Assembly (NCBI GenBank): GCA_003155655.1
Contig: PMDS01000107.1
Span: 1 to 50,080 of the forward strand
DNA length: 50,080 nucleotides
Direction of reading: 5' to 3'
From: Melioribacter sp.
GTDB lineage: Bacteria > Bacteroidota > Ignavibacteria > Ignavibacteriales > Melioribacteraceae
A program made the position numbers and the translations under genes. Within the stretch, counting starts at the first letter, position 1, and the number at the start of each line of letters is the position of its first letter. Below the pieces are notes generated by a model. The model was given only the letters and a program-made list of their open reading frames with translations, searched no databases and was not told where the DNA came from. Below are positions 486 to 41,834 of the stretch, in pieces.

Positions 486-1955
486 ATGAAAATTGCTTTT
501 GCTGCAAGCGAAGTTTACCCATATGCAAAAACAGGCGGACTGGGAGATGTTATCGGAACACTGCCTATAGAGCTTTCTAAGCTGGGTCACGAGGCATTAG
601 TTTTTTTGCCTAGGTATAATACTATCACAATTGAAGATTATAACCTTAAATTATGTGATGACATTGGAGAAATTCCTATCCGCATAGCATCAAATATTTA
701 CAAGGTGCAGGTTTATACAACAACATTGCCCGTTTCAAATGTAATTGTATATTTTATTGACTGCCCGCATTACTTTTGCCGTTTTGAAATTTATACTAAA
801 GATAATGATGAAGACGAACGGTTCATTCTTTTTTCGAAAAGTATTATTGAAACCCTTCAGCGACTTAAATACGCACCTGATGTAATTCACTGCAACGACT
901 GGCATACGGGCTTGCTGCCGGTTTTGTTAAAAGAAAATTATGGGTGGGATAAACTTTTTCACAATACGGCAACTGTGTTCACTATTCATAATATAGCTTA
1001 CCAGGGAATATTTACAAAAGATACATTTAGAAAGGCAGACATTAATCCCGAACATGCCGCACCCGGTGAAATTGGGGAATACTACGGCAACATAAATTTT
1101 CTTAAAACTGCGATTCTAACATCAGACATTATCAATACAGTAAGCGAAACTTATGCAAAAGAGCTCTTAACCGAAGAATTTGGCGCAGGAATGGAAAATT
1201 TTCTTAAAAGACGCGAAAAGGATTTTTTTGGAATACTAAATGGGGCTGATTACAATATCTGGAATCCCGGGAAAGATATTTACATCCCCAATCAATATAC
1301 ATCCTCTGACCTTTCAGTAAAATTAAAAAACAAGACAGCCCTTCTTAAAAGAGTGAATCTTCCTCAGGATAAGAACAAACCATTAATAGGAATTATATCG
1401 AGACTTGTTGAACAAAAAGGTTTTAATCTTTTTGAGGATTCTGCCGAACAGCTAATGAAACTTGATGCCCTCTGGGTTGTTCTTGGCAATGGTGAACCTA
1501 AGTATGAAGAAATGTTTTCCGCCCTGGTGAAAAAGTATCCAGAAAAAATTTCTCTTTACCTTGGCTATTATGACGAGCTTTCTCATTTGATTGAAGCCGG
1601 CTCGGATATATTTCTAATGCCTTCACGTTTTGAGCCATGCGGGCTCAATCAAATTTATTCTTTAAAATACGGTACTGTGCCTGTAGTCCGCAAGACAGGC
1701 GGGCTTGCCGATACGGTTGAAGATTGGGATGAATCTCTTAGTAATGAAATACAATCGGGAACGGGTTTTTCTTTTAAAGATTTCTCGCCTCAAATGTTGA
1801 TTGATACTCTTCAAAGAGCAATAACTTATTACAAAAACAAGCCAACTTGGAAAAAAATTCAGCTAAATGGAATGTGCAAAGATTATTCATGGAAGAAGTC
1901 TGCCGAAAAATATGTTACACTTTATGATAAGGCCCTTAAAAAATATGTCGGCTAA
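486..1955 (+). CDS. glgA: Glycogen synthase (ADP-glucose type, GT5)
   Basis: GlgA transfers glucose from ADP-glucose to the growing alpha-1,4-glucan in the cytoplasm. The 489-residue length fits bacterial GT5 enzymes. The N-terminal signature KTGGLGDVIGTLP (residues 15-27) is the conserved ADP-glucose/glucan-binding KTGGL motif. The Rossmann-type C-terminal half carries SRFEPCGLNQ, containing the conserved catalytic glutamate, followed by the usual RKTGGLADTV sugar-nucleotide loop. The ATG at 486 places the KTGGL motif at the usual distance. There is no Shine-Dalgarno sequence, as for most genes here. No other glycogen gene is adjacent; the next gene, 75 bases downstream on the same strand, is a phosphoesterase. 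The call is secure. Confidence 0.96.
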   Translation: MKIAFAASEVYPYAKTGGLGDVIGTLPIELSKLGHEALVFLPRYNTITIEDYNLKLCDDIGEIPIRIASNIYKVQVYTTTLPVSNVIVYFIDCPHYFCRFEIYTKDNDEDERFILFSKSIIETLQRLKYAPDVIHCNDWHTGLLPVLLKENYGWDKLFHNTATVFTIHNIAYQGIFTKDTFRKADINPEHAAPGEIGEYYGNINFLKTAILTSDIINTVSETYAKELLTEEFGAGMENFLKRREKDFFGILNGADYNIWNPGKDIYIPNQYTSSDLSVKLKNKTALLKRVNLPQDKNKPLIGIISRLVEQKGFNLFEDSAEQLMKLDALWVVLGNGEPKYEEMFSALVKKYPEKISLYLGYYDELSHLIEAGSDIFLMPSRFEPCGLNQIYSLKYGTVPVVRKTGGLADTVEDWDESLSNEIQSGTGFSFKDFSPQMLIDTLQRAITYYKNKPTWKKIQLNGMCKDYSWKKSAEKYVTLYDKALKKYVG

Positions 1956-2030
1956 AATTAAAGAACCGGGCTGTTTTTAATTATTAACACTAAGTTTAAA
2001 CCCAACTAAAATATATTTGTCTAAATTAAT

Positions 2031-3185
2031 ATGAAATTATCTCAACAGCTTATTTTCTTTGGAATTGTATTAACCGTTTATGGATTAGTCAACTTCTATA
2101 TTGTACGCCGCGCTATTTCCGTTGTACCGGAATCTTATAAAAATTTATTCATTACCACGTCGATATTTTTAATTTGTTCATTTATTGCTGGAAGAGTTGT
2201 TGAACATTTCATGGTCAATATTTTTAGCGACACACTTATCTGGATAGGGTCGTTTTGGCTGGCTTTCATGTTTTACTTTTTCTTATTACTCATCTTAATA
2301 GATTTTCTACGACTTATAAACCACTTTATTCCATTCTTTCCTGCATTTGTAACTATTAATATTGAAAAGACTAAAAGAATTGCTGCCCTTATAGTCCTTC
2401 TATTAACATTAATTACCGTTGTGGGTGGGTATATAAACACAAAAATGATTCTAACAAAAACCTATAATTTTAGAATCAAAAAGAATGCCGGCGAACTAAA
2501 GTCTCTTAATGTAGTAATGGCCTCTGATCTTCATCTAGGAAATATCTTAGGAAAATCTTTTCTTTCAAAAATAAAAGACCAGATAAATCAACTACAGCCA
2601 GATATTATTTTTTTTGCCGGAGATATTATTGATGAAGATATTTCTGCGGTTATAAACAATAATGTTGGCGAAGAGCTGCTACAGCTGAAATCAAAATACG
2701 GCGTTTACGCAATTACCGGAAATCACGAATACATCGGCGGTGTAGAAGAGGCGTGCAAATATTTAACCGGGCACGGAATAAATGTTATAAGGGATAGTGT
2801 TGTAAAAATCCAAAATTCGTTCTATATAATAGGAAGAGAAGACTGCTCAATAAGGCAATTTGAAGGAAAACAAAGAAAAGATTTGCAATTGTTGCTTAAA
2901 GATGTAGATAAATCACTTCCATTGCTTATGATGGATCATCAGCCTTTTGGGTTAAAAGAAGCAGTAGAAAATGGTATTGATTTCCAGATGTCCGGTCATA
3001 CACATTATGGTCAGTTATGGCCCATTAATTTTATTGTTGAAAAAATCTACGACCTTGCCTGGGGTTATGCTGTTGATGGAAAAACTCACTATTACGTTTC
3101 ATGCGGGGTTGGCGGCTGGGGCCCGCCGGTCAGAACCGGAAGCCGCCCGGAAATATTAAATTTCAAAATAAAATTTGGGAAATAA
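2031..3185 (+). CDS. Membrane-anchored metallophosphoesterase (YkuE-like)
   Basis: Residues 1-140 contain about four hydrophobic segments, followed by a calcineurin-like metallophosphoesterase domain. Its metal-binding motifs are all present: DLHLG (D166, H168), GD at 197-198, GNHEY at 230-234 and GHTHYGQ near 321. Family members of this layout (YkuE/YaeI-like) hydrolyse phosphodiester or pyrophosphate bonds of lipid-linked substrates at the membrane; the substrate here is unknown. TATATTTG at 2012-2019 resembles the -7 element used elsewhere in the window but lacks a partner TTG, so the gene may be read through from glgA. Its stop codon abuts that of the convergent subtilase gene with no base between. 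Confidence 0.88.
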   Translation: MKLSQQLIFFGIVLTVYGLVNFYIVRRAISVVPESYKNLFITTSIFLICSFIAGRVVEHFMVNIFSDTLIWIGSFWLAFMFYFFLLLILIDFLRLINHFIPFFPAFVTINIEKTKRIAALIVLLLTLITVVGGYINTKMILTKTYNFRIKKNAGELKSLNVVMASDLHLGNILGKSFLSKIKDQINQLQPDIIFFAGDIIDEDISAVINNNVGEELLQLKSKYGVYAITGNHEYIGGVEEACKYLTGHGINVIRDSVVKIQNSFYIIGREDCSIRQFEGKQRKDLQLLLKDVDKSLPLLMMDHQPFGLKEAVENGIDFQMSGHTHYGQLWPINFIVEKIYDLAWGYAVDGKTHYYVSCGVGGWGPPVRTGSRPEILNFKIKFGK

Positions 3186-6005
3186 TCATTTCATGAAGAT
3201 CATTTTCTTTACAGCCGAAAAATCACCTGCCTGAATTCTATAAAAATATACCCCGCTGCCTACAGGAAAATTCTGGGATAAGAATCTAGCATTATGTATT
3301 CCCGCCTGCTGAAATTCATCAATCAATGTGGCAACTTTTCTACCAAGAATATCATATAATTTAATTGTTACCTGAGTACTTCTCGGTAGATAATAGTTAA
3401 TTATAGTTCCCGCATTGAATGGATTGGGATAATTTTGATAAAGCATAAAATCTGACGGCAGAATTTCGGGGATCCAGCCGGTTGTATCTTTGAATTTTAT
3501 TCTGCTTTGCCTTATCGCTGTCTTTAATTCTGCAAGAGACGAGCCGGCGGCAATTGAAAATGCAACCTCTAAATTACCATTTGTCTCAATGCTAAATGGA
3601 CCTCCGGATACAACAAGTGAAATATCTGTTGAGCCCACGGGTTTATTTTTTATCCCGCTGGAAAGCGTTATCCATTTTTCCGCATCACTAAAGCCGTTAA
3701 CGTCATTCATAACTACATCGCCGCTTGTTGCATCATTATCAATCGGGTAATATCCATATTTATCGGATGAAATTAATGCCGTGCCTACAAAAGCGTTTGA
3801 GCTCCCTGTTTCATCTAATGCCACTGCAAAATTATCTGTTGTATCAAAATAAGTTGAGTCAGTTACGGGGTTGTCCTGCGGTAAATCCCAATCAATATAA
3901 AATCCAACATATAAATTCGTTATATTCTTCTGAGTGGTGTTTTTGAGAAACATGTCTAAAATGGCAAAATTATCGTTTGGCGCTTGCCCGTATGTATTTG
4001 ATGTTAAATGAGTCTCAATTCCAAGAGCGTTTGTAAGCGCACCGGCGTCCGAAAAAACAGTTGATCCCTGTTGATCGCTTCCAACATTTTTAATTTTAAA
4101 CGGAGTAATTGTAGTAAAACTTGTATTCTGATTCTCTAAAACTCTTGACTCACTCATCACTTTATTTTGAGTGGTGCCATACATAAGCGCGCCTTCAAAC
4201 ATCAGGTTATCTCCGTTTGCAAATTTGAATCCATCCCCTAATAAATTTGTTGGATAGTCATCAAAGGCAAGAGTGCCTTTGCTTGTAACGGTCATTGTTA
4301 TTCTACCAACATTGTGTGTGCCGTATGTTGGATTAATACGTGCTGTTATCCATTGAAAATCTGAATAATTATTTCCTGAATATTTTATTAAAAAATTTAC
4401 GTCGTGATTAATAGGGGCGCCTGGGTTGATCTTGAATCTAAATTTATTAGCCTGGTTGCCAATAGTTCCAAGCGTTAAAACAGCTCCTGTTTGAAAAATT
4501 GAGTTTAAAATTGTAACCGCATTATCACTTGTCTCTAGAGATATTGTAACGTTTGAAATGGGATTTAAATAATTAGTAAAATTTATTTCGATTGAAGCAT
4601 TCTCATTTGATTCAAGTAAACCGTTTCCATTTCCTTCATCTATAAATTTGACATCAACTGCCCTAACGGAAATTTTATTTGTCGCTCTTACAGCATGGTT
4701 TGCATTAATTCTTCCTCTACCAAGAAGATATTTCAGGGTATCAGTATTATATGGCTCAATATTGTCCGCTGTAACTCTAATTTGTTCTGCAACCTGAAGC
4801 GGAGTATAGTTTGGAAATCTTGAAAAGACAAGACCAGCCAGTCCGGCAACTAGCGGAGAAGCCATTGAGGAACCGCTAATTGAATTGTAGAGCTGTCCCG
4901 AAATTCTGGGCCAGGTAGATAAAATTAAACTGCCCGGCGAGAATACATCTACCAGCCTTCCAAAATTTGCCGCACTGGAAATTATATCGTCGTTTGTATC
5001 AAGCCATCCAACTGCAAGAACGCCTTTATAACATGCCGGATAAAAGTTCTCCAGCTTTCCATCGTTCCCGGCTGCGGCAACTACAAGCGTACCTTTTGAA
5101 ACCGCATAGTCAATTACTAATTGCTCAGACAGGGAATATGCTGATCCTCCCCAGCTGCAATTGATAACTTTAGCACCGTGATCTACCGCCCATTTTATTC
5201 CTTCAAAACCATAGTAAATATATGGTGTACCATTGTCATCGCGTTTATCATCTCTTGCGACTTTAACAGGAATTAATGTGCACTTAAACCCAATTGATGC
5301 AATTCCAATTCTGTTATCCGTAACTGCATCGGCAATTCCCGCAACATGTGTACCATGATACCTGTTTAAAGGAGAATAATCTTCCGATGGATCATTATCC
5401 GGTGTTCCATTAAGCCCGCCTAAATCATAACCAACAAGATTCCCGGATTTATCTTTTAAAACATTTGAGGCCAGGTCTGGATGATTCCAGTCTACACCGG
5501 TATCAACAATTCCTATATGAATTGATGTATCGCCTATTGTTACGGCCCATGCAGAATCAGCAAAAATGCGTTGAAGATTTTTTTGCAGCGAACGAACGTA
5601 AAGAGAATCATTCGGAGTATATGTAACCCTGCGGATATATTTTGGTTCCACCCATTCAAAATTACCGGTTTTTGAAATCTTGGCTGCCAGTATTGTTGGA
5701 TCTTCGGAAGAATTAAAACTAAGCAAATAAATTTTACTTAGCTGCGTTGCTTCTTTATTTAAGACCGGCTGTGCAGGAAAAAGCTGCTTCATTCCCCTTA
5801 AAACAAAATTAGGAATTGTTTTATTTAGAGTTTTTGGTAATCCAGTATAATTATCTTTTACCTTTACAACCAATGTATTGGAAAGGTAATATAAATTTCC
5901 TTTGTGTATTATTTCTTCCTGGGCAAAGGAAATAATTTGAAGAAATAATACTAGCACTATTGTAAGTGATTTTATTTTCAAGAATTTATTAGTTTTTATT
6001 TTCAA
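3186..6005 (-). CDS. Secreted S8 subtilisin-like protease with T9SS sorting domain
   Basis: A 939-residue exported serine protease. An N-terminal signal peptide (hydrophobic core about residues 13-27) precedes a propeptide-like region (about 35-130) and an S8 catalytic domain. Catalytic residues: D168 in GIVDTGVDW, H217 in HGTHVAG and S380 in GSSMASP, with oxyanion asparagine N314 in AAGNDG. About 400 residues of beta-rich sequence follow. The last ~85 residues form a type A type IX secretion sorting domain (YQNYPNPFN, then LYDILGRKVATL, ending KKMIFMK). By family knowledge it is exported by Sec, then carried across the outer membrane by the type IX system and anchored or released. It probably degrades extracellular protein. 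No T9SS structural gene lies in this window. Confidence 0.93.
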   Translation of the reverse strand: MKIKTNKFLKIKSLTIVLVLFLQIISFAQEEIIHKGNLYYLSNTLVVKVKDNYTGLPKTLNKTIPNFVLRGMKQLFPAQPVLNKEATQLSKIYLLSFNSSEDPTILAAKISKTGNFEWVEPKYIRRVTYTPNDSLYVRSLQKNLQRIFADSAWAVTIGDTSIHIGIVDTGVDWNHPDLASNVLKDKSGNLVGYDLGGLNGTPDNDPSEDYSPLNRYHGTHVAGIADAVTDNRIGIASIGFKCTLIPVKVARDDKRDDNGTPYIYYGFEGIKWAVDHGAKVINCSWGGSAYSLSEQLVIDYAVSKGTLVVAAAGNDGKLENFYPACYKGVLAVGWLDTNDDIISSAANFGRLVDVFSPGSLILSTWPRISGQLYNSISGSSMASPLVAGLAGLVFSRFPNYTPLQVAEQIRVTADNIEPYNTDTLKYLLGRGRINANHAVRATNKISVRAVDVKFIDEGNGNGLLESNENASIEINFTNYLNPISNVTISLETSDNAVTILNSIFQTGAVLTLGTIGNQANKFRFKINPGAPINHDVNFLIKYSGNNYSDFQWITARINPTYGTHNVGRITMTVTSKGTLAFDDYPTNLLGDGFKFANGDNLMFEGALMYGTTQNKVMSESRVLENQNTSFTTITPFKIKNVGSDQQGSTVFSDAGALTNALGIETHLTSNTYGQAPNDNFAILDMFLKNTTQKNITNLYVGFYIDWDLPQDNPVTDSTYFDTTDNFAVALDETGSSNAFVGTALISSDKYGYYPIDNDATSGDVVMNDVNGFSDAEKWITLSSGIKNKPVGSTDISLVVSGGPFSIETNGNLEVAFSIAAGSSLAELKTAIRQSRIKFKDTTGWIPEILPSDFMLYQNYPNPFNAGTIINYYLPRSTQVTIKLYDILGRKVATLIDEFQQAGIHNARFLSQNFPVGSGVYFYRIQAGDFSAVKKMIFMK

Positions 6006-16173: not shown

Positions 16174-16247
16174 CTTACTCTTATTCATAATCTTAATCAT
16201 ACTCTTTTGAACGCGAATAAGATTAAGAGTAAGATTATGATTAAGAT
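16172..16247. repeat. 33+10+33-nt inverted repeat placed exactly after the mgtE stop codon
   Basis: The left arm 16172-16204 and right arm 16215-16247 are complementary at 25 of 33 positions around a 10-base loop. The arms consist of variations of ATTAAGA, GTAAGA and ATTATGA words. The right arm ends at the base before the mgtE stop codon (16248-16250), and the left arm runs into the duplicated gene end. The word GATTAAGAGTA also occurs in the repeat on the other side of mgtE (17285-17295). It might act as a terminator or RNA-processing hairpin. Its placement between two versions of one gene end suggests an inserted element. Confidence 0.7.
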
Positions 16248-17240
16248 TTATAAAATCAATGTTGCCAATCCCATGTAAAATAATATTGTGCAAACATCCG
16301 TCAGCGCAAGTGTAATTGGTCCGGCAGAGACTTTCAGGTCCAGCTTCATTCTATGAAGAATAGTTGGGACGCTGAAGCCCCAGATAACCGCGCTTAGCTC
16401 CACAAATACAATGCTTACGCCTATCATTACCGCATGAATAAAATCTCTTTTCCAGAGTTCCACTACCACAGAAACAATTGCTCCGCATGCAATTCCCAAA
16501 AGCAATGCTGTTTTAATCTCGCGCAGCAAATTATTAAAATACCATTTAATTGTCGGCTGTGTTGAGTGAAGCGCCTGCACCGCAACTGTCATTGATTGAA
16601 TACTTACACTCTCACCAAGACCAAGCACCAATGCCAGAAAGAACGCAATAATTAAACTCTGCTCAATAGTTGCATGAAAGATTCCGGTAAAGAGCGCTGC
16701 AATTGTTCCGCTAATAATCGTAACAAGCAGCCAGGGAAAACGTATCTTCCATGCTTTTATTGGTGAAGCATTTTTTACTTCATTAATTCTAAAACCAATT
16801 GTTTCAAATACTGCATCATACTGTGCCGGTTCCGTGCTTTCATCATCTTCTCCAAGCAGCTCATCAGTAAAAAGGTTTATGTCTACTATGCCAATCAATC
16901 TTTTTTCTTCATCCACAATTGGGAAAGCTAAAAATTTATACGTTACAAAGAACTCGCATGCGTCATAAACAGTTGCAGTTTTTGGAAGCGCTGCAACACG
17001 TTTAACCATCAGCTCTTCTATTTTTTGATCCGCTCTACCAGTTAACAATCTGCGTGTCGGAAGTACTCCCACAAGCCTTTTCTCATCATCAACTACATAG
17101 AAATAAACTATTCTTTCACCAAGACCGACTTCCCGGATTTTCTTCAGGGTTTCATCAACTGTTAAATCTTTTTCCAGCGCAGTATAATCTTTACGCGCAT
17201 GGTCTATAACCGGCTGATGATATGTATGCTTGTCTTGCAT
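16248..17240 (-). CDS. mgtE: MgtE-family magnesium transporter, short form with CBS pair
   Basis: A 330-residue divalent cation channel/transporter. Residues about 25-130 form two CBS domains, which in MgtE sense cytosolic Mg2+. About 165-330 form the five-helix pore domain with the conserved tail GPITLALTDVCTIL, whose D315 corresponds to the pore magnesium-binding aspartate. The family's N-terminal helical N domain (about 100 residues) is missing, so gating may differ from the full-length proteins. It lies between gyrB and the defence cluster in the same direction. Both of its flanks carry word-rich inverted repeats, and its 3' end exists in a second, diverged copy downstream, so it looks like a target of small inserted elements. 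Confidence 0.88.
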   Translation of the reverse strand: MQDKHTYHQPVIDHARKDYTALEKDLTVDETLKKIREVGLGERIVYFYVVDDEKRLVGVLPTRRLLTGRADQKIEELMVKRVAALPKTATVYDACEFFVTYKFLAFPIVDEEKRLIGIVDINLFTDELLGEDDESTEPAQYDAVFETIGFRINEVKNASPIKAWKIRFPWLLVTIISGTIAALFTGIFHATIEQSLIIAFFLALVLGLGESVSIQSMTVAVQALHSTQPTIKWYFNNLLREIKTALLLGIACGAIVSVVVELWKRDFIHAVMIGVSIVFVELSAVIWGFSVPTILHRMKLDLKVSAGPITLALTDVCTILFYMGLATLIL

Positions 17241-17258
17241 TGCTGCTTTTGTTCTTTT

Positions 17259-17310
17259 TCTTAATCTTAATCATCATCAACCAAGATTAAGAGTATGAGT
17301 AAGATTAAGA
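17259..17310. repeat. Inverted word-rich repeat between gyrB and mgtE
   Basis: TCTTAATC words (17259-17272) face GATTAAGA words (17285-17292 and 17303-17310), so the strand can fold back on itself. The sequence shares GATTAAGAGTA with the hairpin downstream of mgtE. It starts eight bases after the gyrB stop codon. Unlike the downstream locus, no second copy of the gyrB end is visible. Confidence 0.55.
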
Positions 17311-17317
17311 TTTTAAA

Positions 17318-35378: not shown

Positions 35379-36305
35379 ATGAACAGTATTGTTGTTAAAA
35401 ATCTCACAAAAAAATTCGGCAGTTTTACGGCAGTAGATGAAGTTTCCTTTGAGGTTAAACGCGGAGAAATTTTTGGTTTCCTGGGGGCTAATGGAGCCGG
35501 TAAATCCACAACAATAAAGATGCTTTGCGGGATTTTAGAGCCAACATCAGGGGATGCGTTAGTAGGCGGGTTTAGTGTTGCAAAAGAGCCTGACAAAGTA
35601 AAACAAAATATCGGCTATATGTCACAGCGCTTTTCTCTCTATAATGATTTAACGGTAGAAGAGAATATAGATTTTTTTGGCGGTATATACGGACTTGAAG
35701 GCAATTTATTTGAAGAACGTAAAAAATGGGTTTTGCATATTGCAAATTTGGAAGGAAAAGAAAAACTTCTAACCAGCTCATTACCGGGGGGCATTAAACA
35801 AAGGCTGGCGCTAGGCACCGCAGTTATTCACAAACCGCAAATAGTTTTTTTAGATGAACCGACCAGCGGAGTGGATCCTATTTCACGAAGAAACTTCTGG
35901 GATTTAATCAACAGTCTTTCAGCAGAAAATATTACCGTTCTGGTTACAACACACTATCTGGAAGAAGCAGAATACTGCAATAACATTATTTTAATAGATG
36001 CAGGGAAACTTATAGCAGAAGGCAGCTCAAAACAGTTAAAAACTAATTATATCAAAGTCCCAATTTTTGAAATTGAGTGCAGTAACGTTGTTGAAGCTAT
36101 GGAGCTTTTAGAAAAGCAGGATTTTGTTGGGGAGACATCAATTTTTGGAAACAACATTCACGTTATTACAAATGAAAAATTTAAAGATGAATCACAAATT
36201 CACAATCTCTGCAAATCAAGCTCTATAAATGTGAAAAGGATAAATAAAATTATTCCAACACTTGAGGATGTTTTCATACATCTTTTAGAAAAAGGCAAGA
36301 AATAA
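35379..36305 (+). CDS. ABC transporter ATPase 2 (efflux)
   Basis: Partner ATPase of the exporter. Walker A GANGAGKSTT and Walker B IVFLDEPTSGVD are canonical, and the H-loop is intact (VTTHYLEEAE). The signature reads LPGGIKQ, not LSGGQ, a mild deviation. The frame opens at a TTG overlapping the previous stop, but the ATG at 35379 is preferred. The stop and the next start share bases as TAATG, so translation is coupled to the permease. The combination of one ATPase with an altered switch and one with an altered signature suggests one degenerate and one active nucleotide site. Confidence 0.9.
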   Translation: MNSIVVKNLTKKFGSFTAVDEVSFEVKRGEIFGFLGANGAGKSTTIKMLCGILEPTSGDALVGGFSVAKEPDKVKQNIGYMSQRFSLYNDLTVEENIDFFGGIYGLEGNLFEERKKWVLHIANLEGKEKLLTSSLPGGIKQRLALGTAVIHKPQIVFLDEPTSGVDPISRRNFWDLINSLSAENITVLVTTHYLEEAEYCNNIILIDAGKLIAEGSSKQLKTNYIKVPIFEIECSNVVEAMELLEKQDFVGETSIFGNNIHVITNEKFKDESQIHNLCKSSSINVKRINKIIPTLEDVFIHLLEKGKK

Positions 36306-37432
36306 TGTTTAACAGGATAAAAGCGATTTCAAAAAAGGAAACCAAGCAGCTTATACGAGATGTTAGAATGATGGCGGTGATTTTTTTATTCCCTGTTTTT
36401 CTGCTTGGGATGTTTGGTTATGCAATAAATTTTGACGTTCATCACATTAAAATTGCAGTTTATGACCAGGACAAATCTTCTGTAAGCAGGGAATTTATTA
36501 ATTCACTTTTAAGCAGCGAGTATTTTGATCTTGCGGGTTATTTAAATTCCGACAAACAAATAAAACAAAACCTTGATGAAAAATTAGCGCAGTGTGTTGT
36601 TGTAATCCCATACAATTTCTCACGTGAATTTTATGCAAACAGGCCTTCTAAAATTCAATACCTAATTGATGGCGTAGACGGCAATACGGCAACAGTTATT
36701 ATGAATTATGTTAATGTTGCCACAATGAGCCATTCGAGCAAGCTAACAGCAGAAATCCTGGCAAGAAAGGGAATGAATGTGTTTGCCCTCATTCAACTGG
36801 AACCCCGCTTTTGGTTCAATCCCGAATTAAACTCAACAAGATTTTTACTTCCGGGACTTATAGGAATGATATTAATAGTAGTCTCTGTAATAACAATTGC
36901 TTTATCTATTGTGCGGGAAAAAGAAAGAGGAACAATTGAGCAGATAAACGTCTCACCTCTTTCAACTATAGAAATGATGATTGGCAAAACAATACCTTAC
37001 ATTGTAATTGCACTTATAAACGCCGGGTTGATTTTACTTGCGGGCTTTATACTCTTTGGAATAACAATTAAGGGAAGTATTCTCTGGCTTATAATAAGCA
37101 TTTTAATTTTTCTTTTTTCCTCCCTTTGTCTAGGACTTTTGGTTTCAACAATTGCTGATTCACAGCAAGTCGCTTTCCAAATTGGCACATTGATTTCAAT
37201 GATTCCTTCATTGCTGTTATCAGGATTTATATTCCCGATTGAAAGCATGCCGCCCATCGTTCAAATAATAACAAATATAACTCCGGCAAAATTTTTTATA
37301 GTGTGTTTGCGCTCAATTCTTCTTAAAGGAGAAGGAGTTGCAGTTTTCTGGCAGCAGCTTGTGTTCATGATGATATTTGCATTTGCAGTTCTTGCGATTG
37401 CAACGAGGAGGTATATTAAGAAAGCAGTATAA
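36305..37432 (+). CDS. ABC-2 type permease 1 (efflux)
   Basis: A 375-residue ABC-2 permease of the YbhS/YbhR kind. One N-terminal membrane helix is followed by a large periplasmic domain (about 45-175), then five helices. The conserved post-periplasmic segment REKERGTIEQINVSPLS is present. It is paralogous to the second permease downstream, with which it should form the membrane heterodimer. Its last codons (IATRRYIKKAV-stop) recur in a diverged copy 96 bases further on (37493-37544), just before the four-helix-bundle gene. The operon is therefore interrupted between the two permease genes. Confidence 0.9.
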   Translation: MFNRIKAISKKETKQLIRDVRMMAVIFLFPVFLLGMFGYAINFDVHHIKIAVYDQDKSSVSREFINSLLSSEYFDLAGYLNSDKQIKQNLDEKLAQCVVVIPYNFSREFYANRPSKIQYLIDGVDGNTATVIMNYVNVATMSHSSKLTAEILARKGMNVFALIQLEPRFWFNPELNSTRFLLPGLIGMILIVVSVITIALSIVREKERGTIEQINVSPLSTIEMMIGKTIPYIVIALINAGLILLAGFILFGITIKGSILWLIISILIFLFSSLCLGLLVSTIADSQQVAFQIGTLISMIPSLLLSGFIFPIESMPPIVQIITNITPAKFFIVCLRSILLKGEGVAVFWQQLVFMMIFAFAVLAIATRRYIKKAV

Positions 37433-37544
37433 AGTATAAGTATAAGGAGTAAGTAGAAAGTTGTAATTCTTTAATATCTTTTAATTCTTGTAATTGCAAC
37501 AAAGAAGTATATCATAAAGCAGTTTAAAGTATAAGTATAAGGAG
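37397..37544 (+). repeat. Two diverged copies of the permease 1 gene end plus AAGTATAAG words
   Basis: Copy 1 (37397-37449) spans the last 11 codons and stop of permease 1 and continues TATAAGTATAAGGAG. Copy 2 (37493-37544) repeats this with about 45 of 53 positions matching and one missing base. In the permease frame copy 2 reads IATKKYI-KAV-stop, with synonymous third-base changes (ACG to ACA, ATT to ATC, GTA to GTT). Between them is a 43-base spacer. The second copy ends in AGGAGG, which serves as a strong ribosome binding site for the four-helix-bundle gene. Confidence 0.75.
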
Positions 37545-37549
37545 GATAA

Positions 37550-37909
37550 ATGGAAAAGACTTCCAAATTTACAGATCTGATTGTTTGGCAGAAAGCGCAT
37601 CAATTAGTCTTGGATATTTATTTAGCGACAAAATCGTTTCCCAAAGAGGAGCTTTATGGATTAGTATCTCAACTAAGAAGAGCTGCAGCTTCAATTCCGG
37701 CAAATATTTCTGAGGGCTATAAGAAAAGAAGTTTTCTGGACAAAATTCGCTTTTTGAATATAGCCGAATCATCTCTTGAAGAAGCAAAATATTATTTAAT
37801 TCTGGCAAATGATTTAAAATATACTGATACAACAAAATTATTAAACACTTCCGAGGAAGTAGGAAGATTAATAAATGCATACGTAAATGGAATTGAAAGA
37901 AACAAATAA
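37550..37909 (+). CDS. Four-helix-bundle protein (23S rRNA intervening-sequence / S23 type)
   Basis: A 119-residue four-helix-bundle protein. FTDLIVWQKAHQLVLDIY, SFPKEELYGLVSQLRRAAAS and IPANISEGYKKRS are hallmarks of the family first seen encoded within intervening sequences of 23S rRNA genes. The function of the family is unknown; it is structurally related to the Avd accessory protein of diversity-generating retroelements. It has an unusually clear Shine-Dalgarno sequence (AAGGAGG, 37539-37545), whereas its neighbours do not. It splits two permease genes of one exporter and is flanked by duplicated and complementary sequence, so it looks like a small mobile cassette rather than a transporter component. 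Confidence 0.88.
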   Translation: MEKTSKFTDLIVWQKAHQLVLDIYLATKSFPKEELYGLVSQLRRAAASIPANISEGYKKRSFLDKIRFLNIAESSLEEAKYYLILANDLKYTDTTKLLNTSEEVGRLINAYVNGIERNK

Positions 37910-37914
37910 TTCAT

Positions 37915-37945
37915 CTCCTTATACTTTATACATTATACTCTAGAC
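37915..37945 (+). repeat. Inverted counterpart of the AAGTATAAG flank after the four-helix-bundle gene
   Basis: CTCCTTATACTTTATAC (37915-37931), followed by ATTATACTC, is complementary to the TAAAGTATAAG/TATAAGGAG words in front of the gene (37525-37544 and 37429-37449). The cassette thus begins and ends with sequence that can pair into a stem, as in intervening sequences of 23S rRNA. Confidence 0.65.
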
Positions 37946-37955
37946 GGAAAAGACG

Positions 37956-39083
37956 ATGAAGATAGTTATCCATTTTATTAAAAAAGAGTTTCAGCAATTT
38001 AAGCGCGATCCTAAAATGTTTGCGATGGTTCTTATTGCGCCAATACTTCAATCTATCATACTTGGGTATGCGGCAAATCTTGATATAAATAATATTAATC
38101 TTATAGTGTTTAACCAGGATCAATCCAGGCTCAGCAGAGATTATATAGACAAGTTTACGCATTCCGGGTATTTCACAATAACTAAAGATGTTAACAGTTA
38201 TGATGAAATGACAAAAGATATAGCAGCCAGTAAGGCATTAATTGGAATTGTTATCCCGCGAGATTTTGAGAAGGACATTAGTAATAACAGAACTTCACAC
38301 GTTCAAATTTTAGTTGATGGTTCTGACGGCAACAAAGGATCAATTGCGTTTGGCTACACGCAGGGAGTAACATCAAATTTTTCCCAACAGATTATTCTTG
38401 AGTCAGCTGCCCGCAGAGGAATAAAAACTTCAGCCGGATCAATTACCCCGGAAGTGAGAATCTGGTATAATCCTGAACTTAAAACAAGAAATTTTATGGT
38501 TCCAAGCATTACAGCGCTAATTCTTCTGTTGACGACTACTTTGCTGACTTCTCTAGCTGTTGTAAAAGAAAAAGAACTTGGAACGTTAGAGCAGCTTATA
38601 GTTACGCCAATAAAACCCTGGCAGATGGTTTTGGGAAAATTAATTCCGTTCGTAATTCTTGGTTTTGCAACAATGGCGCTTGTAAATTCAATTATGATTT
38701 TTTGGTTTGGAATACCAATTAGAGGAAGCATAATCTTTTATCTCTTTTCATCATTTTTATATATTTTATCAACATTAGGATTAGGGCTTTTCATTTCAAC
38801 AATTTCCAAGACGCAGCAGCAGGCAATGATGGTCTCTATCTTTGGCGCCATGATGCCTATGATTTATCTTTCCGGGTTTGCGTTCCCGATAGAAAATATG
38901 CCAAAGATAATTCAATACATTACCTATGCAATTCCCATGCGTTATTTTATTACAATTATAAGAGGTGTAATTCTTAAAGGAATTGGCTTTGCTGATCTAT
39001 GGCGCGAAGCGCTGATGTTGTTTATTATGGGGATAACAATTTTATTCTTGAGCTCGCTTAGATTCAAGAAAAGGCTGGAATAG
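37956..39083 (+). CDS. ABC-2 type permease 2 (efflux)
   Basis: A 375-residue paralogue of permease 1 with identical layout: helix 1 (about 22-42), periplasmic domain, five C-terminal helices. The segment VKEKELGTLEQLIVTPIKPW corresponds to REKERGTIEQINVSPLS of the first permease. The LSGFAFPIENMPKIIQ block is also conserved between them. It completes the TetR-HlyD-ATPase-ATPase-permease-permease exporter, which resembles E. coli YbhGFSR. Its natural position directly after permease 1 is broken by the four-helix-bundle cassette. A word-rich inverted repeat begins at its stop codon. Confidence 0.9.
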   Translation: MKIVIHFIKKEFQQFKRDPKMFAMVLIAPILQSIILGYAANLDINNINLIVFNQDQSRLSRDYIDKFTHSGYFTITKDVNSYDEMTKDIAASKALIGIVIPRDFEKDISNNRTSHVQILVDGSDGNKGSIAFGYTQGVTSNFSQQIILESAARRGIKTSAGSITPEVRIWYNPELKTRNFMVPSITALILLLTTTLLTSLAVVKEKELGTLEQLIVTPIKPWQMVLGKLIPFVILGFATMALVNSIMIFWFGIPIRGSIIFYLFSSFLYILSTLGLGLFISTISKTQQQAMMVSIFGAMMPMIYLSGFAFPIENMPKIIQYITYAIPMRYFITIIRGVILKGIGFADLWREALMLFIMGITILFLSSLRFKKRLE

Positions 39084-39180
39084 TAGCGAGTGTAGAGAGT
39101 AGAATGAAGAACGTAGAGTAAAACACCCGATCAAGAAGTATTAATTCGCCCATCACTCTGCGTTCTACACTCTGCACTAC
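39083..39180. repeat. Imperfect inverted repeat with GTAGAGTGTAGA words between convergent genes
   Basis: The left arm 39083-39119 (GTAGCGAGTGTAGAGAGTAG... ending ACGTAGAGT) faces the right arm 39155-39180 (ACTCTGCGTTCTACACTCTG...). The arms use repeated GTAGA/AGAGT words and can form an imperfect long stem. It starts at the last base of the permease 2 stop codon and ends five bases before the stop of the convergent DUF5916 gene, so it could end transcription from both sides. Its style matches the repeats near mgtE and permease 1, with a different word. Confidence 0.6.
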
Positions 39181-39185
39181 AAGAG

Positions 39186-41834
39186 TTACATATTAAACCA
39201 GTAAGAGAATTTAACCAAGAAAACACTATCTCCATCTGAACGCCAAAGATTTTTAAAATCCCTGCCGAAAGAAAGATTACCAGCATCATCAGAGTTTGAT
39301 TGATTGCGCGACCAGACAAAATAGAATATTGAACCAGGCATTGCTTCCCATCTTAAAACAACATTACCTCTAAGAGATTTGTAGTTAAAATCCGGATTAG
39401 AGATTTGGAATGACTGCGCCGGTCCATTTCCATCCGGATCAATATTATATTCCCCGGCCGCTTCGTCATAGGAAATAGTTGATCCGTTTTGTCCATAAAT
39501 ATTAAGATCAAGTGTTCGTGGTTTTGCAACCTCCTTAAAATCTTTGTAATGTCCTACAGAAATAAACGGCTGAAGGAATAGCTGAAGGCTTAATGTTGGT
39601 GTAAAAGTCCAGTTTAGTCTGATATTTGCTGCTATTGTTTTCTGATCAAGGGTTGCAAATACATATCTGTTACCGTAAGTGTTAACAGCAGTTGGATCGG
39701 AATAATTATCAACCCACTGGCGCGTATCGAAGTTAAATTCGTAAGACGGGCCTATACTTAAGCTTAATTGGGAATTGGGTTTCCATTGAATACTGGGATA
39801 GTAACCATTGAAGATACCGCCAATCTTGTTTTGTGAATGATCGAACTCAAAGTACATAATTACTTTTTCTTTATTGTTTGAATTGACATAAACGCCTACA
39901 TAATAACCAGAGGGATTTAAAATCATTGGACCTCCGCGTGTTGCAGTTGCGCTGTATGTTTCTAAATTATAATTTCCATAAGCACCCATTTCCCAGAAAT
40001 TCATAAATTGAAAATATGCGTTTGCCCATAGAAAATTGCTTATTGAATTTCCTTCGAAATTGAGACTACGTGCATATGCCGCATAAACAGTTTTCTGTCT
40101 GAAAAATCCATCCGGTTCAAACCATCTGTAACCAAGCACTGTGTGGAAATTTATTCTGTCTGCAAACGACTGAAAGCCAAGATCATTAAATTCAAAGCCG
40201 GGGCTTATAGCGCCAATGGCAGAGTTAATATAAAAATTTCCACTTTGTTTGTTTAACATTATGCGCCCGTAATAACCGGAAAGAGAAGTTCTGGAAGAAT
40301 CCAAAGTTTCGTAAGTAGCATCAGGCCGCTGATAGTATCTATATGGTTTTTGCTGCAATAATTGTAAATATTGTTTAGAGCCCTCAACGTAAGAACCGGC
40401 AGCGGCAGCGGCTATAACATAATCTTTATTGTCATCCAGGAAAGTATATCCATCCAACCCAAACGTAAAAGCATTTTTTGCAAGATGGTTTTTTAAACTA
40501 TCATAATCCAAAGCTCTATTTACAGTAGTAAACATCAGTCCAAGAGACTGACGTCCATCGTTAAATTCTTTTCTAGTTCTGAGTACGCCATAGTGTGCTA
40601 ATGGTTCAACCTCTTCTTGTGTTTGAGTGCCTGCATTAAAAAGTTTTGCATAAGTTCTCTCTGTAATAGCGCTTACCGCAGAAATGGAAGTGGTTTCATC
40701 TAATTTTCCAGTCAACTTTGCAGCGCCAAGAATTTTTGTTTCAGTTGGATAGTCAACATAATCAGCAGAGGATGTTGCCCCACTTGGCGCTTTTCCAATT
40801 CTTCTAGAGTAAAAAAGCTCCGGCCAGCCAAAGTTAAATCCCCAATTATTATTAACTCCGCCAATTCCAAAGTAAAAAGTAGTAGCTCCTTCAACAAAGA
40901 AAGGTCTCTTTTCCTGGAAATAGGATTCAAAGGCTGTAAGATTTATAACGGCAGGGTCAACTTCAACCTGTCCAAAATCCGGGTTGATTGTCGCATCAAC
41001 GTTTAAATTGCTTCCAATACCAATTTTTAAATCTGCACCAAGTGTTGTTCTGTATTGATTTGATTTATAGAAAGGATCAGCTTCATCATGTTTTAAGAAT
41101 TGTGCTTTCTGAACAATATAAGGAAGAACTTCAAATCTTTGTTTGGGCTGAACTCCTTTTATGCCGTCAAGCTCTGCAAACCTTGAAACAAAACCACTTT
41201 CCTTTTTGGGAACCATTACATAATAAGATCTTTCATTTTTCCTTTGTATTTCCCTTGCAAAGTTAATTCCCCAAGTCATTTCACTAGCTTCTTTAAATCT
41301 CATTTGAGAAAATGGGATTCTCATTTCAATGCTCCATCCTTTTTCGTCAACAGAGGTTTTAGCTTCCCAAACACCATCCCACGAATTATCATCCCAGCTA
41401 TCATTAAAAAGAGTGCCGTCCATCATTGTTCCCCCGGCATTTACACCAAAGTAAAAACCAGTTTTTTTATCATTATAAGGATCTACATAAAAAATAAACC
41501 AATCAGACAAATAATAATTATCTCTTCTTGCGATGCTTCTATCGATTAGTTCTGACTTAGAATCAAAACAACGAGCTGCTACGTATATATAATTATCATC
41601 ATAGGCTATCCACGCATTGGTGGTTTCTGATGCAGGAGAGCCTTCGTTAGGATCTCTTTGTGTGAAATTTGAAATGGGAGGGTTCTGCCAGACGGGCTCG
41701 TCTAACTTTCCATCAAGTATTATTGTAGTTTGTTCTACTTTGAAAGCAACAACAGGGCGGGGAGCGGCAGGTTTTCCCTCGGCCATAAGTATAATAGGGG
41801 CAACGATATAAAACAGTAACATTATTCTTTTCAT
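39186..41834 (-). CDS. DUF5916 outer-membrane protein with CBM9-like N-terminal domain
   Basis: The N-terminal part after a signal peptide (MKRIMLLFYIVAPIILMAEG) is a CBM9-like domain: ILDGKLDEPVWQNPPISNF, WIAYDDNYIYVAARCFD and GWSIEMRIPFSQMRF. The large C-terminal DUF5916 region (about 240 to the end) is rich in alternating aromatic strands and ends in KFSYWFNM, as expected of an outer-membrane beta-barrel. The frame opens 17 codons earlier, but the start at 41834 gives a normal signal peptide. The function of the family is unknown; substrate binding or uptake at the outer membrane is likely. It is convergent with the efflux operon. Confidence 0.85.
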   Translation of the reverse strand: MKRIMLLFYIVAPIILMAEGKPAAPRPVVAFKVEQTTIILDGKLDEPVWQNPPISNFTQRDPNEGSPASETTNAWIAYDDNYIYVAARCFDSKSELIDRSIARRDNYYLSDWFIFYVDPYNDKKTGFYFGVNAGGTMMDGTLFNDSWDDNSWDGVWEAKTSVDEKGWSIEMRIPFSQMRFKEASEMTWGINFAREIQRKNERSYYVMVPKKESGFVSRFAELDGIKGVQPKQRFEVLPYIVQKAQFLKHDEADPFYKSNQYRTTLGADLKIGIGSNLNVDATINPDFGQVEVDPAVINLTAFESYFQEKRPFFVEGATTFYFGIGGVNNNWGFNFGWPELFYSRRIGKAPSGATSSADYVDYPTETKILGAAKLTGKLDETTSISAVSAITERTYAKLFNAGTQTQEEVEPLAHYGVLRTRKEFNDGRQSLGLMFTTVNRALDYDSLKNHLAKNAFTFGLDGYTFLDDNKDYVIAAAAAGSYVEGSKQYLQLLQQKPYRYYQRPDATYETLDSSRTSLSGYYGRIMLNKQSGNFYINSAIGAISPGFEFNDLGFQSFADRINFHTVLGYRWFEPDGFFRQKTVYAAYARSLNFEGNSISNFLWANAYFQFMNFWEMGAYGNYNLETYSATATRGGPMILNPSGYYVGVYVNSNNKEKVIMYFEFDHSQNKIGGIFNGYYPSIQWKPNSQLSLSIGPSYEFNFDTRQWVDNYSDPTAVNTYGNRYVFATLDQKTIAANIRLNWTFTPTLSLQLFLQPFISVGHYKDFKEVAKPRTLDLNIYGQNGSTISYDEAAGEYNIDPDGNGPAQSFQISNPDFNYKSLRGNVVLRWEAMPGSIFYFVWSRNQSNSDDAGNLSFGRDFKNLWRSDGDSVFLVKFSYWFNM

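Follow-up and report, generated by a model that had tools for sequence, protein, structure and literature searches.

What is a gene of the PF05635 family, which is mainly known from inserts in rRNA genes, doing between two permease genes of an exporter operon? The question is raised by a 50,080-nucleotide stretch of a Melioribacter sp. contig (hereafter the window), in which a four-helix-bundle ORF of 119 amino acids (37550..37909, forward strand, as are the permease genes, the repeat copies and the arms described below) lies between the genes of ABC-2 permease 1 (36305..37432; PF12698, E 1.3e-55) and ABC-2 permease 2 (37956..39083). The ORF matches the 23S rRNA intervening-sequence protein models PF05635 (E 1.9e-36, 124.9 bits against a curated cut-off of 33.8) and TIGR02436 (E 5.4e-35, 119.9 bits against 24), and both adjoining genes match ABC-2 permease families. 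This confirms the sequence-only reading that a four-helix-bundle gene splits the two permeases of an exporter. A solved homologue was found by sequence (PDB 2gsc, E 2.4e-16), and the solved relatives 2gsc and 2rld contain five chains each. The protein is also homologous to the four-helix bundle Avd of diversity-generating retroelements (PHROG Avd, E 1.2e-8; Pfam bAvd, 7e-8, under the bAvd cut-off), but it falls short of the Avd NCBIfam cut-off (29.1 vs 80 bits). Avd is described, in the available part of one paper, as needed for retrohoming together with a reverse transcriptase (PMC10053308); no PF00078 reverse transcriptase was found on the window contig (C25), and the sole match in the genome lies on contig C11.

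The ORF is enclosed by complementary arms: (i) an outer left arm (37427..37451; inverted repeat I1); (ii) an inner left arm directly 5′ of the ORF (37522..37544; inverted repeats I2 and I4); and (iii) a right arm complementary to the left arms (37907..37931; inverted repeats I1–I4). The complementarity noticed in the sequence-only reading on the two sides of the gene (37427–37451 / 37907–37931) is borne out by its cis score of 38; the 156 cross-locus pairs of the 13 same-genome copies average 20.4 and reach at most 31. Among 40 window ORFs scored, one other is as high (16248–17240, score 42). Of 187 ORFs scored over 250 kb of the same genome, 13 score above 25 and three above 31, the window gene being counted among the three. 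That other window ORF is an MgtE/CBS gene flanked by gene-less hairpin-like repeats with AAGATTAAGAGTAAG-type words (16179–16249 and 17250–17313), whose pair score exceeds that of the window cassette. The window arms themselves mix units of six and seven bases. The predicted RNA fold of 37400–37960 closes on the arms and pairs the outer left with the right arm; with a z score of −1.5 and equal stability in 8 of 100 shuffles, the predicted fold of the unit as a whole is unexceptional. No target-site duplication could be assigned at the window copy, no terminator-like site was found at the locus, Rfam gave no matches in 36000–39500 and PADLOC gave no match.

The sequence comparison also upholds the claim that the end of permease 1 is repeated in diverged form in front of the gene. 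A direct repeat consists of copy 1, i.e. the permease-1 end plus the outer left arm (37389..37449), and copy 2, i.e. the diverged permease-1 end plus the inner left arm (37485..37544), which align over 61 columns with eight mismatches and one gap and are identical in their final 20 bases. As a general feature of the family, the duplicated gene end had to be rejected. Ten loci were read from the group whose upstream direct repeats are strongest (L093, L103 and L111 also belong to this group but lie outside the reading); only the window copy carries a duplicated gene end, and in the other nine it appears to be arm or repeat sequence that is repeated. We take the copied permease end most readily as a scar that a single recombination or duplication event left at the window copy.

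We then asked how far the arms extend across the family. The genome itself (4.62 Mb, 137 contigs) contains 13 family loci, five of them with internal stops. Nine of these have an upstream flank that, when set against the reverse-complemented downstream flanks of all the loci, fits the one from its own locus best (with a second place in one direction for one of them); the other four copies (L007, L009, L012 and L013) have no clear arms. The wider set of 190 loci comprises 99 loci of the order (20 genomes), 80 named-genome loci (the best 80 of 562 candidates) and 11 viral-contig loci. The latter were kept from 18, of which four were dropped as repeats of other loci and three because their matches were short and partial. 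Loci L012 and L013 are outside the 99, having no seed-model match, L014 is a repeat of L009, and L015–L017 are pattern hits. Scoring included the ORF end and excluded two loci whose flanks were too short. In 143 of the 188 scored loci the cis score exceeds the 95th percentile of trans scores (about nine expected) and in 96 the 99th percentile, with means of 34.4 in cis and 18.3 in trans. The counts above the two percentiles are 74 and 47 of 99 in the order, 60 and 41 of 78 in the named genomes, and 9 and 8 of 11 in the viral loci; in a same-locus control with the upstream flank shifted away they fall to 7 and 3 (n = 179). These counts are of non-independent events, because the loci are kin to each other. 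Flanking arms, whose absence at other copies of the family would have spoken against the sequence-only reading, are found at the majority of the scored copies. Three of nine plasmid loci score low (22, 22 and 16), and in these the right arm overlaps the ORF end. One ORF with a chance arm score (L305) was discarded, as it has no family match.

When orthologous insertions are compared group by group, pairing in cis does not exceed that in trans (34.6 vs 33.7; cis higher in four of eight groups), and therefore no compensatory change was detected in them; this speaks against a constraint on the arms as RNA. Orthologues with near-saturated synonymous change nevertheless retain arms that match each other, and this persisting match speaks for some constraint on the arms or their renewal. 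A scan of 250 kb for solo hairpins gave no hits at a strict threshold (control, one) and 18 at a loose one (control, 12). Gene-less hairpins are thus not demonstrably frequent.

If the gene is an insertion, homologous junctions should exist without it, and the sequence-only reading had named its constant presence there as a refutation. Permease matches were found in 17 relatives, 11 of which were read (the match in G008 is at a contig end). The gene is absent from all 12 permease 1–permease 2 junctions read in these 11 relatives, where the gap between the aligned permeases is 23–129 nt compared with 532 in the window. In five genomes with distant permeases (G001, G002, G005, G006 and G010; 34–37% identity), the coordinates put two permeases 2–5 nt apart, so that the gene cannot fit. 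The empty exporter junctions of G003 and G007 contain short palindromes similar to arm ends. At distances of no more than a few kb from exporters of this type, G009, G011, G013 and G017 also carry family copies (L024, L030, L031, L067 and L095; junctions judged by eye).

Other junctions show a similar mixture of filled and empty states. At the nuoD junction, four of 20 genomes are filled (G017 as judged from its nuoD side), two have apparent arm remnants (clear in G002, less so in G006), 13 are otherwise without ORF or remnant (seven with a compact gap after nuoC and six with a short spacer), and one has another neighbour. The hemB junction is filled in seven of 19 genomes, in two groups by arm word, and the junction at an aconitase-type gene in ten of 19, by cassettes with several different arm words; the pair that fills it in G010 and G011 belongs to a divergent family branch. 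At some of these junctions the space is occupied by another palindrome with words like ACACGGATGACAC and ATCAGCGTTC (L271, L274, L295 and L299). Before the aconitase-type gene of G013, a broken GIY-YIG-like ORF (L297, 2026–2211, minus strand; PF01541, E 0.00075, under the cut-off) is enclosed by arms with GTCATTGCGA / TCGCAATGAC, and may represent another class of armed cassette that uses this junction. Among 19 orthologous pairs of family copies, dN/dS is 0.04–0.27 in 17, 0.58 in one and undefined in one, with several dS values near saturation; these ratios support purifying selection on the family protein.

Movement is most directly visible on plasmids. A plasmid protein search returned 45 records, 39 of them cyanobacterial by their listed names, and four plasmid junctions were compared with relatives without the gene. 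At site A, in a conjugation region of plasmids of ∼98% identity, two genes are 13 nt apart when the site is empty and 441 nt apart when it holds the cassette; plasmid C of Trichormus variabilis ATCC 29413 is an example of a filled site A, and a plasmid of Tolypothrix sp. PCC 7601 of an empty one. The corresponding distances at site D are 3 nt and 420 nt. Both insertion ends have a 5-mer in common at two of the four sites, GTAAT at site A and TTCTA at site D (where one base differs beside TTCTA, and the relative L327 is without the 5-mer), and none is shared at sites B and C. The shared 5-mers at sites A and D suggest target duplication. Decay and nesting are also seen: L317 has arm-like repeats on both sides and no ORF, L323 retains the left arm and part of the ORF, and L328 carries an insertion within a family ORF.

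Related cassettes occur at unrelated sites. The ORFs at sites A, D and E are ∼77–82% identical, are without flank homology and have arms with TCAGAAG/TCAGGAG. More generally, 117 of the 187 ORF pairs with at least 70% DNA identity are without flank homology (blastn). For these flank-unrelated pairs we asked whether one arm or both are more similar than in 95% of random pairs. This holds for 19 of 21 pairs at ≥75% ORF identity, 19 of 32 at 72–75% and 31 of 64 at 70–72%, and for 8% of random pairs. The arms thus seem to be carried along with the gene and to diverge afterwards. Joint movement of gene and arms is indicated both by the related cassettes at unrelated sites and by the ∼98% identical cyanobacterial plasmids with and without the cassette. 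Within the genome of the window, no pair of copies reaches 70% identity, the threshold for counting as moved, and the family protein L002 had no match in a phage collection at E 1e-5.

The link to rRNA was then considered. Intervening sequences of 23S rRNA are cut out by RNase III, and Ralph and McClelland reportedly described in 1993 such sequences with a PF05635 ORF. According to the accessible portion of a study of CPR bacteria, the family also occurs in insertions of their 16S and 23S genes, and the protein of rRNA intervening sequences is there termed functionally uncharacterised (PMC11270868). One of our loci, L238 of Azospirillum lipoferum 4B, lies inside a 23S rRNA gene, as the Rfam LSU_rRNA_bacteria match spans both of its sides (798–3996); its arms score 47, are heptad-like and have the same architecture as those of the operon cassettes. 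The record annotates no gene here, and a clear start codon was not seen. A blastn search with the rRNA of L238 found matching flanks in none of the other 313 loci, and L238 is the sole family copy found within 23S rRNA. The window unit shares with 23S rRNA intervening sequences the protein family and the complementary ends enclosing an ORF, but differs from them by sitting between ABC-2 permease genes rather than in an rRNA gene. The like arms of L238 and the junctions without the gene support the proposal that the same kind of unit as in rRNA sits here in an operon.

The reading that we favour, and consider probable, is that the window unit is an intervening-sequence-type mobile cassette, consisting of a four-helix-bundle ORF and two complementary arms, that was inserted in sense orientation into an operon gap. 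We favour it because (i) the cassette is absent at homologous junctions; (ii) gene and arms appear as one unit at new junctions; (iii) selection on the protein is purifying; (iv) cassettes decay in place, leaving broken ORFs and arms behind; and (v) the copy in rRNA has like arms. The complementarity of the arms in cis across the family, their heptad period and the position of the cassettes between co-directional genes speak for it too. Counting against it are the lack of a cis excess among orthologous insertions, the unexceptional fold of the window unit, the four of 13 copies without clear arms and the single strict heptad array among 11 loci in the window genome, the 5-mers shared at two of four plasmid sites, the reverse transcriptase match on another contig and the lack of any pair of copies in the window genome that counts as moved. 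Mechanistically, the arms would pair in the transcript and set the ORF apart as a hairpin domain, which an RNase III-like enzyme may cut; a hairpin domain that can be cut would make the unit tolerable in an rRNA helix and between cistrons alike. By homology to Avd, the protein may bind the hairpin nucleic acid and aid movement. We know of no enzyme activity for the PF05635 family, and catalysis of movement would probably come from something other than the four-helix-bundle protein.

A different view, possible but rather doubtful in our judgement, is that the cassette is a MITE-like element acting at the DNA level, with arms that are terminal inverted repeats for a transposase acting in trans, a protein that is a DNA-binding helper, an operon position that reflects tolerance, and no RNA step. 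The common 5-mers at two of four insertion sites, the ORF-less spacer of L317, the nested insertion of L328 and the lack of a compensatory signal in orthologous groups would all fit such an element. Its difficulty is that the cassettes track the transcript. Both neighbours are co-directional in 134 of the 161 loci with readable neighbours, and the median gaps to co-directional neighbours are 59 and 48 nt; taken separately, upstream neighbours are co-directional in 160 of 172 cases and downstream neighbours in 151 of 175, compared with 214 of 277 other neighbour pairs. The arms are also strand-polarised: on the coding strand, 157 of 190 5′ flanks are richer in G than in C, and 142 of 190 3′ flanks are richer in C than in G (the mean G skew of the family ORFs themselves is 0.12). 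The copy within rRNA likewise argues against a purely DNA-level element. Stop codons in all frames of the 5′ arm are a weak signal, occurring in 31 of 64 periodic arms, compared with 20 for the reverse complement.

The arms are frequently degenerate seven-base repeats whose word varies with lineage. At the 99 order loci, self-match at a lag of seven reaches 0.359 in one flank and 0.351 in the other, compared with 0.258 at 500–1000 nt, with peaks also at 14 and 21. Strict period-7 arrays occur within 160 nt of the ORF in 21 of 99 order loci and 26 of 91 named-genome and viral loci, and at 1 kb in one locus of each set. Other strict periods are rarer (period 8 in four and ten loci; periods 4–6 and 9–12 together in four and two). 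A looser test finds 143 of 380 flanks periodic, with 104 distinct units; a strict heptad array is present in one of 11 loci of the window genome. Less probable than a DNA-level element is that the heptads came first, as ordinary slippage repeats of intergenic gaps in or beside which the gene lands. Heptad arrays without a family gene do exist, both in the window genome (L307 at 8843 and L311 at 11030) and, in the accessible text of two papers, in other bacteria (PMC4679880, PMC4692102), as this alternative would have it. However, only these two were found in 250 kb of the window genome, and the arms of moved cassettes are alike, in 19 of 21 pairs at ≥75% identity. Moreover, where plasmid sites A, C and D or the nuo junction (in seven genomes) are empty, they are compact and free of repeats and arm-like palindromes, which likewise led us to reject growth of the arms from the target site.

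That the gene is instead a resident serving its host operon, e.g. in exporter regulation, is very improbable: purifying selection on the protein would suit it, as would the five genomes with family copies inside or close to exporters of this type, but only one of 13 permease 1–permease 2 junctions read (the window's own included) is filled, related cassettes adjoin nuo, heme, aconitase-type, conjugation and cas genes, and five of 13 copies in the window genome carry stops.

If the favoured mobile-cassette reading is extended, one widespread class of RNA-level selfish cassette might invade both rRNA helices and operon gaps, with arms built or renewed as heptads, decay that seeds scattered heptamers (STRR, TAACTGA and GGGNATC) and copies in cas operons that are the same unit; we offer this broader proposal tentatively, as plausible rather than probable. 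The STRR of cyanobacteria are seven-base repeats. Arrays of the TAACTGA heptamer are described in other bacteria without this gene, in the part of the report available (PMC4679880). GGGNATC heptad repeats of Xanthomonas and Nostoc lie, according to the sections seen of another, preferentially between aligned ORFs, within 50 bp past the stop (sense strand) or within 50 bp ahead of an ORF (antisense), and in Xanthomonas form inverted pairs in part (PMC4692102). All three heptamers have seven-base units in common with the cassette arms, and the GGGNATC placement given in these sections is like that of the arms (PMC4692102). The PF05635-type gene family is unmentioned in the text searched of both papers (PMC4679880, PMC4692102), and among the matches listed from the open-access literature, with subscription journals mostly outside, we recognised none that joins this family with heptad arms.

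If PF05635-type genes do form the heart of a mobile cassette found in ordinary operons, many of the genes now labelled ‘S23 ribosomal protein’ or ‘four helix bundle protein’ are inserted and do not belong to the cas, nuo or exporter systems around them, and the scattered heptamer repeats would acquire a possible source. Plasmids with filled and empty versions of one junction make excision, RNase III cutting and movement testable. In the passages available of a survey of cas loci, 23S_rRNA_IVP genes are found within them and are counted among CRISPR-Cas-associated functions (PMC3936711). As in the window, this places the same family within one operon, and arms suggest an inserted cassette. On cyanobacterial plasmids, two armed family copies (L237 and L239) separate cas6 from cas4 in type I-D systems, and their arms score 50 and 57.
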